Below are positions 38,161-43,609 of a stretch of 64,000 nt of DNA, piece after piece. Below the pieces are notes generated by a model. The model saw only the letters and a program-made list of their open reading frames with translations. It ran no database searches and had not been told where the DNA came from. The translations under genes and the position numbers were made by a program. Source of the stretch: Planctomycetota bacterium (GTDB lineage: Bacteria; Planctomycetota; UBA1135; GCA-002686595); NCBI GenBank assembly GCA_016795245.1, contig JAEUIA010000022.1, positions 1 through 64,000 of the forward strand, read 5' to 3'. The stretch's first letter is position 1. The number at the start of each line of letters is the position of its first letter.

Positions 38161-39255
38161 CTAGGCCCACTCCGGCAGGCGCGCCTCGATCGCCGCGCGG
38201 ATCTGGCGCGCCGTGCGTTCGTAGTCGGCGCGCGTGCCGCCGATCGGATCGGAGATGTTCACTCCGTTCGGATCGAGCAGCAGGACGAGCTTCGAGCGCC
38301 CGGGCGGGAGGATGCGGCGCAACTCGTCGACGTGACTCGCGGTGAGTCCGTACACACGGTCCATGCGCGTGGTTTCCTCGAGCGTCGCGGAGCGCGAGCG
38401 GTGTCCCGACAGATCGATGCCGTCGTCGGCCAGGACGTCGACGGAGAACTGCGAGGCCGGCGCGCCGTTCGCGGCTTGGACGCCCATCGACTGGACGCTG
38501 AAACCGAAGTCCGCCAGTCCCTTGGGATCGGTCATCAAGCGTTTCGCGAGCAGTTCGCGCGCCAGCGCCTCGGCCATCGGACTGCGGCAGGTGTTGCCGG
38601 TGCACACGAACGCGAGCTTCAAGCCTGCGACGGCGCGCAGTTGCTCTGGAGTGAAAAGGCCCGCCCGCAGCAGTTCGAAACGGCCGCGTCCGAGCCGCAG
38701 CACGCTCGAAGCCTCGCCCATGCGCGAGGGCCCGCCGTCGACGACGATCTCCACGGCGGATTCGAACTGCGCTTCGACTGCATCCGCGTCGGTGGCGGGC
38801 GCGCTGCCGTGGCGATTCGCGCTCGTCATCACGACCGGGAAGGGCAGGTCCGCGAGGATGGCGCTCGTGGCCTTGTGCGCGGGCACGCGCACGCCGGTCC
38901 AATCGTCGCGCGCCACCCGTTCCAGCCCGGACGGAACTCCGGGCAAGACCAGCGTCAGCGGGCCGGGCCAGTAGCGCTCCGCCAGCCGGCGCGCCATGGG
39001 CGACAGCGCGGGGAAGGCGTCCAAGGCACGCGCATCGCCGGCGTGCCAGGTCAGCGCCATGTCCGTCGGGCGGTCCTTGGCTTCGACCAGGCGCGCGAGC
39101 GCCGCGGCGTCGTCCGCGCGCACCGCGAGACCGTACACGGTCTCCGTGGGCAGCGCCGCCAGACCGCCCCGTTCGAGCACGTCGCGCACGCGGCGGACGA
39201 TTTCGGGGGCGGGCGTCTCGTCCAGGACGCGGGCGCGTTCTCGAGCAGTGCTCAT
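38161..39255 (-). CDS. Sua5/YrdC - protein arginine phosphatase (YwlE-type) fusion
   Basis: A 364-residue two-domain protein. Residues ~18-200 are a Sua5/YrdC domain: PTETVYGL (36-43), KDRP at 60-63, YWPGPLTLVLPG and VVMTSAN. This family makes threonylcarbamoyl-AMP for tRNA t6A37. Residues ~213-364 are a low-molecular-weight phosphatase: P-loop C218-TGNTC-R224-S with CX5R intact, and the acid Asp in DPIGG (336). The Thr 222 in the P-loop is the residue that distinguishes arginine phosphatase YwlE from tyrosine phosphatases, which carry Ile or Leu there. In Bacillus ywlC (Sua5-like) and ywlE are close neighbours, so a fusion is plausible. The ATG at 39255 excludes an upstream low-complexity extension. 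Confidence 0.87.
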   Translation of the reverse strand: MSTARERARVLDETPAPEIVRRVRDVLERGGLAALPTETVYGLAVRADDAAALARLVEAKDRPTDMALTWHAGDARALDAFPALSPMARRLAERYWPGPLTLVLPGVPSGLERVARDDWTGVRVPAHKATSAILADLPFPVVMTSANRHGSAPATDADAVEAQFESAVEIVVDGGPSRMGEASSVLRLGRGRFELLRAGLFTPEQLRAVAGLKLAFVCTGNTCRSPMAEALARELLAKRLMTDPKGLADFGFSVQSMGVQAANGAPASQFSVDVLADDGIDLSGHRSRSATLEETTRMDRVYGLTASHVDELRRILPPGRSKLVLLLDPNGVNISDPIGGTRADYERTARQIRAAIEARLPEWA

Positions 39256-39340
39256 CGTGGGGCGCTCGGCTCGGGCGTGGTCGCGCGCAAGCGGCAGCGT
39301 TAGCCTATCGGACGATCGACGGGCTTTCACCCGAACCATC

Positions 39341-40155
39341 ATGGAGGTTTCGAAAGACGACAAGCGCGCGAACCCCGAGCCGGAGAGCGTCGAGCGCGCC
39401 GCGGAGGTCGCTCGCACGGTCGAGCGCTCGGCCGCGACGGAGCGCATGCTCGCGAGCCTCGCGGCGGGCCTGGCCCACGAAATCAAGAATCCCTTGTCCA
39501 CGATGGCGATCAATCTGGCGCTCCTGGAGGAGGAATGGGGGCGCGGGCGCGAGGGGGGGGAGCCCAGTGCGCGCGAGAAGCGCGCCTTGAAGCGCGTCGC
39601 CACGCTGCAGCGCGAGATCTCGCGCCTCGAGACCATCGTCGAGGATTTTCTGCGCTACGCGCGCGGCGGCGTGGTCAATCGCTCGCCCCGCGATCTGTGC
39701 CAGGTCGTGCGCGAGACGCTGGAGTTCGTCGAGCCGGAAGACACCCTGCAGGGCATTCGCCACCACGCGGAACTGCCGGTGGGGTTGCCGCTCGTGATGC
39801 TGGACGACGGCGCCTTCCGCCAGGCGCTCTTGAACCTGTTCGTGAACGCGCGCCACGCGATGCCCATGGGCGGCGAATTGATCGTGCGCGTGCAACGCAG
39901 CGGGAATCAGGTCGAACTGTCGGTCACCGACACGGGCGTGGGGATGCCGCCGGACGCGCTCGAGCGCTGCTTCGACGTCTACTGGTCCACCAAGAAGGGC
40001 GGTACGGGTCTCGGGCTCTCGACGACGCGCCGCATCGTGGAAGAGCACGGCGGGCACATCACGGTCATCTCCGAGCCCACGCGCGGCACGAGCTTCTCGA
40101 TCTTCCTGCCGCTGATCGTCGAGATTCACAAGCAGCGCGGACCTGAGGAAAGAGC

Positions 40156-40159
<4 letters not shown>
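39341..40159 (+). CDS. NtrB-like soluble sensor histidine kinase
   Basis: A 272-residue cytosolic histidine kinase. The phosphoacceptor is His 46 in GLAHEIKNPL. The catalytic ATPase domain has the N-box LLNLFVNARHAMP, the G1 box SVTDTGVGMPPDALERC and the G2 box GGTGLGLSTTRRIVEEHGG. There is no transmembrane helix and no PAS or GAF domain. The N-terminal ~35 residues are only a charged helix, so the input signal is unclear. It is coupled (ATGA overlap) to a sigma-54-type response regulator, as in NtrBC-like pairs. Confidence 0.92.
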
Positions 40160-41529
<1,370 letters not shown>

Positions 41530-41533
41530 ACCC

Positions 41534-41589
41534 CTGCCAGCGCGGCAGACCCGCGCGGAACGAGCCGGGGAGCCTGCCAGTCCGGCAGG
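41534..41589. repeat. Two similar CTGCC-N5-GGCAG hairpins
   Basis: Stem-loops at 41534-41548 (CTGCC/GGCAG, loop AGCGC) and 41573-41589 (CCTGCC/GGCAGG, loop AGTCC) share the word CTGCCAG-N2-CGGCAG and lie 39 bp apart. They start 5 nt after the NtrC-like stop, so they could end that transcript or be REP-like repeat units. No T tract follows either. Confidence 0.5.
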
Positions 41590-41653
41590 AAGGGCCCGGC
41601 GACGGTGACGCGGTAAGGCCTTATGCAGTAATGACTTCTGTCGCCTCCGAGGG

Positions 41654-41669
41654 TGGCACGCCGTTTGTC
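41654..41669 (+). promoter_or_regulatory. Possible sigma-54 (-24/-12) promoter of dnaK
   Basis: TGGCACG, 4 nt, then TTGTC, against the consensus TGGCACG-N4-TTGC. The -24 half is perfect and the spacing correct; the -12 GC is GT here, a weakness at an important base. It ends 32 nt before the dnaK ATG. A sigma-54 activator gene lies immediately upstream. I see no CIRCE element. Confidence 0.3.
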
Positions 41670-41701
41670 TAAGGGGGGAGGCGAAAGGACACCCAAGACT
41701 C

Positions 41702-43609
41702 ATGGCTCAACAAGGCAAGATCATCGGAATCGACCTCGGCACGACCAACTCCGTCGTGTGCGTGATGGAGGGCGGCGCCCCCGTCGTCATCCCCAACGCC
41801 GAGGGCGGTCGTACCACCCCGTCGGTCGTCGCGTTCCAACCCGACGGTGCCGTCCTGGTCGGCGCGCCGGCGAAGCGTCAGGCGGTCACGAACCCCACGC
41901 GCACGATCGCTTCGATCAAGCGCTTCATGGGGCGTCGCCACCACGAAGTCGCGATGGAAGAAAAGAACGTGGCGTACAAGCTCGTCGGCGGAGCGGACGA
42001 ACTCGTCAAGGTCGAGATCGACTCGAAGCGCCTGACGCCGCCCGAGATCAGCGCCAAGGTCCTCGGTTACTTGAAGGAAGCGGCCGAGTCCTATCTCGGC
42101 GAGAAGGTCACGCGCGCGGTCATCACCGTGCCTGCGTACTTCAACGACGCACAGCGCCAGGCGACGAAGGACGCCGGCACCATCGCCGGTCTCACCGTCG
42201 AGCGCATCATCAACGAGCCGACGGCGTCCGCGCTCGCCTTCGGTCTGGACAAGCAGAAGTCGGGCCGCATCGCGGTGTTCGACTTCGGCGGCGGCACGTT
42301 CGACATCTCGATCCTCGAGATCGGCGACGGCGTGTTCGAAGTGCTCGCCACGAACGGCGACACGCATCTCGGTGGCGACGACTTCGACAAGGCGCTGATC
42401 GATCACGTGGCTGAAGAGTTCAAGAAGTCCTCGGGCATCGACGTCCGCAAGGACCCGATGGCCATGCAGCGCCTCAAGGAAGCCTGCGAGAAGGCCAAGA
42501 TCGACCTGTCCTCGATGCCGCAGACCGACATCAACCTGCCGTTCATCACGGCGGATGCGTCGGGTCCCAAGCACCTTCAGGTCGGCATCACGCGCTCGAA
42601 ATTCGAAGCGCTGATCGACGGCCTCATCGACCGCGCCAAAGGCCCGTGCTTGCAGGCCTTGAAGGACGCCGGCATCGACACGAGCAAGATCGACGACGTG
42701 ATCCTCGTCGGCGGATCGACGCGCGTTCCCGCCGTGCAGGCGCTCGCCAAGAAGATCTTCAACCGCGAACCGAACCGCGGCGTCAACCCGGACGAAGTCG
42801 TGGCCCTGGGCGCCGCGATCCAAGGCGCGGTGCTGGCGGGCGAGGTCAAGGACGTCGTCCTGCTCGACGTCACGCCGCTCTCGCTAGGTATCGAGACGCT
42901 GGGTGGCGTGTGCACGAAACTCATCGAGAAGAACACCACGATCCCGTCCAGCAAGAGCCAGGTGTTCTCGACCGCGAGCGACAACCAGCCGAGTGTCGAG
43001 ATCCACGTCTTGCAGGGCGAGCGCGAGTTCGCGCGCGACAACCGCACGCTGGGCAAGTTCCACCTCGACGGCATCGCTTCGGCACCGCGCGGGATGCCGC
43101 AGATCGAAGTGACCTTCGACATCGACGCCAACGGCATCTTGAACGTCAAGGCCGTCGACAAGGGCACCGGCAAGCAGCAGTCGATCCGCCTCGAAGCCTC
43201 CTCGGGCTTGTCGAAGGAAGAGATCGAGCGCATGCGCCGCGATGCCGAAACGCACGCGGCTGAGGACAAGGCGAAGCGCGAGATGGTCGATCTGAAGAAT
43301 CAGGCCGATCACGCCGTGCACGAAATCGAGAAGCAGCTCACGGAGCACAAAGCCAAGCTGCCCGCCGATGTCGTGTCCGAGATCGAAGCGGCGCGCGACG
43401 CCTTGAAGACGGCTGCGCAAGGTGCGGACAAGGCCGCGCTGCAAACGGCGCTGTCCGACCTGCAGACGAAGGCGCAGAAGATCGGCGCCGCGGTCAACGC
43501 ACAAGCTCAGGCGGCGAGCGGCGACGAAGCACCCCCGCGGGCTGAGGGCAAGTCGGGCTCGAAGAGCGACGACGAACCGGTCGACGCCGATTTCGAAGTC
43601 AAGGCCTGA
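41702..43609 (+). CDS. dnaK: Hsp70 chaperone DnaK
   Basis: A 635-residue protein of normal DnaK length. The ATPase domain starts with [17 protein letters not shown] and contains [19 protein letters not shown] and '[13 protein letters not shown]'. The interdomain linker is [19 protein letters not shown]. The substrate-binding domain and helical lid follow, and the C-terminal tail ends in DADFEVKA. No grpE or dnaJ gene is adjacent, unlike the common heat-shock operon. A strong terminator follows at 43631. Ribosome site candidates AGGGGGGAGG and AAAGGA precede the ATG. Confidence 0.98.

Follow-up and report, generated by a model that had tools for sequence, protein, structure and literature searches.

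Among the described systems closest to the locus studied here are the phosphatases YwlE and PtpB of Bacillus and Staphylococcus (PDB 4kk3, 4pic, 1zgg), which combine the LMW-PTP fold with a CTGNTCRSPMAE P-loop and a DPxGG acid loop. In both enzymes, Thr versus Ile at the selectivity position directs activity towards phosphoarginine (pArg) or phosphotyrosine (pTyr) (PMC8001253). Arginine phosphorylation has also been tied to t6A synthesis in B. subtilis, where TsaD, which uses threonylcarbamoyl-AMP (TC-AMP), is phosphorylated by McsB at Arg282 and degraded by ClpCP, and YwlE protects it (PMC7546277). This control is exerted by separate proteins and acts via the TsaD level. In the window, by which we mean the whole 64,000-nucleotide stretch of planctomycete DNA analyzed here, a phosphatase with the same fold and the same P-loop and acid-loop types (about 30% identity to YwlE/PtpB, compared by sequence and model) is instead fused behind TsaC.

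Architecture of the fusion gene

The minus-strand frame running from position 39255 to 38161 is a single unbroken ORF of 364 amino acids, identified as a tsaC-LMWP fusion gene (38161..39255) by Pfam, NCBIfam and its homologues. Its TsaC/YrdC domain (threonylcarbamoyl-AMP synthase; 38659..39180, minus strand; PF01300, E 1.8e-43) keeps the PTET, KxR (K-D-R), WPGP and SxN (SAN) motifs intact and is followed, after a linker of about 15 residues, by a low-molecular-weight (LMW) phosphatase domain of predicted arginine-phosphatase type (38185..38613, minus strand; PF01451, E 1.4e-24). Run on the fusion protein, Pfam places Sua5_yciO_yrdC at residues 26–199 (E 4.8e-43) and LMWPc at residues 215–357 (E 3.2e-24), and the NCBIfam model TIGR00057 for L-threonylcarbamoyladenylate synthase scores 140.7 bits against a curated cut-off of 123.2. 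Pfam detected PF01300 and PF01451 only; the SUA5 C-terminal domain was not found and the phosphatase stands in its place, which sets the protein apart from the Sua5 subtype. In an AlphaFold model built from 30 fusion homologues (pLDDT 95.2, pTM 0.86), the N-terminal half reaches Z 28–29 when aligned with archaeal Sua5 and with Thermotoga TsaC2 (Z 29 for TsaC2).

These results bear out the proposal of the earlier note that one polypeptide joins Sua5/YrdC to an LMW phosphatase. A frameshift or an assembly chimera can be ruled out, since at least ~150 genomes of the phylum carry full-length homologues. The fusion is real and conserved, and is mostly explained as a known enzyme pair in permanent union. 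No description of a Sua5-LMWP or YrdC-YwlE fusion was found in the literature searched, whose coverage leaves out most subscription journals.

No TsaC candidate besides the fusion was found in the window genome; the one other YrdC match (C93) was rejected as a second TsaC, being a NodU/TobZ-like carbamoyltransferase. Likewise, apart from the phosphatase of the fusion, no LMW phosphatase outside the ArsC type was found there, the other LMWP being ArsC-like. With the assembly at 92.6% completeness, a second copy may have escaped it. The surroundings of an ArsC-like phosphatase at G000:C53 (L002), which adjoins aquaporin-like and methyltransferase genes, resemble an arsenic cluster. In the window, the divergent neighbors of the fusion (39332–43609, plus strand) are a histidine kinase, identified by Pfam, and a sigma54-type response regulator and DnaK, both assigned by reading the sequence only.

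The substrate of the phosphatase half

The C-terminal half has the CX5R P-loop, the DP acid loop and the fold of LMW phosphatases. Sequence and the alignment of fusions locate the Thr-containing P-loop CTGNTCRS at C218-T-G-N-T222-C223-R224-S225 (38581..38604, minus strand) and the acid loop DPIGG at D336 to G340 (38236..38250, minus strand), both as the earlier note had read them; YwlE has Phe in the acid loop (DPFGG) where the window protein has Ile. The residue deciding between pArg and pTyr can be specified as the fifth of the P-loop, which is T222 here and Thr11 in YwlE.

We surveyed the alignment columns of 111 fusions, comprising 70 from a mostly planctomycete group and 41 from Omnitrophota. 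C218, C223, R224, D336 and P337 are intact in all 111, although the sequences were chosen by the motif CxGNxCRS and the invariance of the P-loop Cys and Arg is thus by construction, whereas that of D336 and P337 is not. At the selectivity position, the planctomycete group carries Thr (66/70) or Ser (4/70), and Omnitrophota carry mostly Ser (33/41), with Thr in five and Ile in three. An assay of Ser at this position was not found in the literature searched. The P-loop of the Omnitrophota fusions L073, L081 and L232–L257 is mostly CTGNSCRSV, with Ser as the selectivity residue and Val replacing the Pro after CRS. Two further loci, L207 and L228 (G047), hold a fusion with the divergent P-loop CLGNLNRS, followed by rpiB.

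Activity on tyrosine or on a small molecule (e.g. a by-product of the t6A pathway) instead of phosphoarginine would be in line with the name of the family, which refers to tyrosine phosphatase, with the three Ile-bearing Omnitrophota fusions and with the fold comparison. The best fold match of the modeled C-terminal half is B. subtilis YwlE 4etn (Z 24.7, rmsd 1.3, 143 aligned), and Thermoanaerobacter 4egs reaches Z 24.4; as tyrosine phosphatases score nearly as high (Z 22–24, slightly under YwlE), the substrate is not decided by the fold. We nevertheless consider such a substrate unlikely, given a selectivity residue that is Thr or Ser in 108 of the 111 fusions, the presence of McsB, McsA and ClpC in the genome and a branch of Ile-type tyrosine phosphatases that is separate from the fusions, albeit weakly supported (65/87). 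This branch was obtained in a tree of 58 phosphatase domains, in which ArsC proteins also stand apart (100/98), two YwlE sequences join 4egs (98/99), and the fusions form one planctomycete group (95/89) and one Omnitrophota group (99/98). The backbone of the tree is without resolution and gives the fusion domains no firm position beside YwlE, so that the tree speaks neither for nor against YwlE orthology or a single origin of the fusion. The top three PDB sequence matches of the phosphatase include YwlE 4pic and the YwlE-like 4egs; the latter, the best match, has a Thr P-loop and is labeled RpiB, a linkage also seen in the gene cluster described below, but differs in not being fused to TsaC.

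The window genome encodes the kinase, activator and unfoldase of the arginine phosphorylation system, as do the genomes in which YwlE and PtpB operate. McsB (contig 86, 366 aa) matches a solved protein-arginine kinase with E 4.5e-77 over 350 residues and contains CPTNVGTGLRASVMMHLP and a C-terminal ERDRMRA, which corresponds to the RDxxRA phosphoarginine site. McsA (C73:23165-23689) is encoded immediately upstream of a ClpC-type gene on contig 73, whose product has two GTEH N-domain motifs, a UVR-like linker and an N-domain matching ClpC structures; elsewhere in the phylum, relatives have mcsA immediately upstream of mcsB. McsB and McsA score below the curated NCBIfam cut-offs, yet those models are their sole matches. 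The earlier note had suggested a search for mcsB and ClpC and would have seen a refutation in a genome lacking any arginine kinase combined with activity on phosphotyrosine only; since McsB, McsA and ClpC are all encoded, this objection falls away. Its assignment to the arginine-phosphatase type is backed by the sequence, the closest structures and this set of partners, and is weakened by the absence of a firm placement with YwlE in the tree and by the mostly Ser-type Omnitrophota. The phosphatase half very probably removes phosphate from protein arginines.

Distribution and gene neighborhood

Asked how widely it is conserved in the phylum, the fusion proves to be nearly phylum-wide and present in a second phylum. 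It occurs at full length in at least ~150 of 392 genomes of the window's phylum, the named relatives being Planctomycetota, and in about 80 of 117 genomes of Candidatus Omnitrophota; the named records comprise several planctomycete classes, Candidatus Omnitrophota and one Aerophobetes bin. McsB was found in 113 of the 117 Omnitrophota genomes and in 371 of the 392 genomes of the window's phylum (95%), a frequency that makes co-occurrence of fusion and McsB within the phylum uninformative. Several fusion-bearing draft genomes have no McsB match. B. subtilis has mcsB. Our control panel reported PF00217 as absent from this species; the control appears wrong for this family and was not taken as a background rate.

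Two genomes (G004 and G028) have neither a McsB match nor the fusion; they encode a stand-alone TsaC, and their phosphatases, among the matches read, are of the Ile (tyrosine) type or the ArsC type only. A third (G187) has a stand-alone Thr-type phosphatase and no McsB match. In families f31 and f57, TsaC is fused to TsaE and the phosphatases are of the Ile type, some genomes having McsB and some not. These data are partly what one would see if fusion-free lineages had lost McsB together with the Thr-type phosphatase, the sample being small and the draft genomes incomplete. The TsaC-TsaE fusion occurs in another planctomycete lineage (L201–L204, from G026, G071, G107 and G051) and was confirmed in L202 by TIGR00057 and TIGR00150, with a TsaD frame adjoining.

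In Bacillus, the gene order is ywlC..ywlE-ywlF(rpiB)..glyA. Of 56 named loci, about 20 have an ORF directly after the fusion that is RpiB-like by motif (three confirmed by NCBIfam), and in L101 (7051–8796) RpiB and serine hydroxymethyltransferase (GlyA) share one frame directly after the TsaC-LMWP fusion, the old cluster having collapsed into two double-enzymes. The Bacillus order is therefore still recognizable, and the conserved rpiB neighbor attests to an old cluster of genes. The window has no rpiB directly after the fusion, the next downstream gene being convergent. Unfused tsaC and LMWP genes lie 0–47 bp apart on one strand in 16 of the 117 Omnitrophota genomes and are neighbors in single records from a gemmatimonadote (L108), a lentisphaeral bacterium (L109) and a clostridium (L123). 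The fusion most likely originated in an old tsaC-ywlE-rpiB cluster. The same data speak for the main rival reading, a neutral fusion, in which old operon neighbors became joined and the enzymes work independently, with no functional meaning: the unfused genes are still adjacent in places, rpiB is next in many loci, and the RpiB label of 4egs and the RpiB-GlyA frame show that this cluster fuses readily. We regard a neutral fusion as a real possibility, though on balance not a probable one, as the linkage has been maintained across two phyla and is also found where the TsaC half has degenerated.

Degenerate TsaC halves and the possible meaning of the union

In about a quarter of the sampled planctomycete fusions, the TsaC active-site motifs are lost and the phosphatase is perfect, so that, unlike the window protein, many of its relatives are catalytically degenerate as TsaC enzymes. 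KxR is missing in 24 fusions, SxN in 20 and both in 19, all within the planctomycete group; both are lost beside an intact phosphatase in L024, L025, L026, L027, L029, L055, L070, L075, L083, L110 and others. In one such genome, G054, of which about 1.6 Mb was tiled, a separate gene of the Sua5 type that has every motif lies near C13:23800-24340. A TsaC without catalytic residues can thus stay attached, which a neutral fusion does not predict for a dead domain, the less so with a separate intact Sua5 in at least one of these genomes. These degenerate fusions are new here and the most surprising part of our results.

The earlier note had called a link between tRNA modification and arginine phosphorylation unexpected. 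This holds in part: the known tie through Bacillus TsaD (PMC7546277) and the rpiB neighbor, as a relic of an old cluster, make the link less of a surprise. Every planctomycete TsaD sequence covering the site, including that of the window genome, has an arginine equivalent to Arg282, as judged against an approximate B. subtilis reference sequence; this mapping is a lead, and weak evidence, since the arginine is probably universal in TsaD.

The reading that we favor, and hold to be rather probable, is that TsaC and the cell's protein-arginine phosphatase, the counterpart of YwlE, were brought into one protein from the tsaC-ywlE-rpiB cluster and kept together for proximity to the t6A enzymes. The N-terminal half would make TC-AMP for t6A37 of tRNA, and the C-terminal half, if active on phosphoarginine as predicted, would serve as the functional counterpart of YwlE, reversing arginine phosphorylation by McsB and thereby rescuing marked proteins from ClpC. 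The fusion would put this phosphatase on the very enzyme that hands TC-AMP to TsaD, and may have been kept since the phosphatase then sits beside the t6A enzymes, chiefly TsaD. A more far-reaching and rather doubtful proposal is that the TsaC domain in Planctomycetota and Omnitrophota docks or senses, steering the arginine phosphatase to TsaD/TsaB, so that the supply of threonine, ATP or TC-AMP would set protection from McsB/ClpC; this role would have outlived TsaC catalysis in many lineages, leaving a pseudo-TsaC phosphatase.

In the literature that we found, accounts of arginine phosphorylation as a degradation tag come almost exclusively from Gram-positive bacteria. In the two phyla examined here, both outside Bacillota, nearly all genomes have the arginine kinase, and its likely phosphatase is covalently joined to an essential tRNA-modification enzyme. 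The occurrence of the joined protein together with the matching kinase through two phyla suggests cooperation between the two systems. With the fusion, the reason for a coupling of t6A synthesis to protein-arginine phosphorylation becomes open to direct testing, and the fusions with a degenerate TsaC half offer a natural experiment on the role of the TsaC half beyond catalysis.
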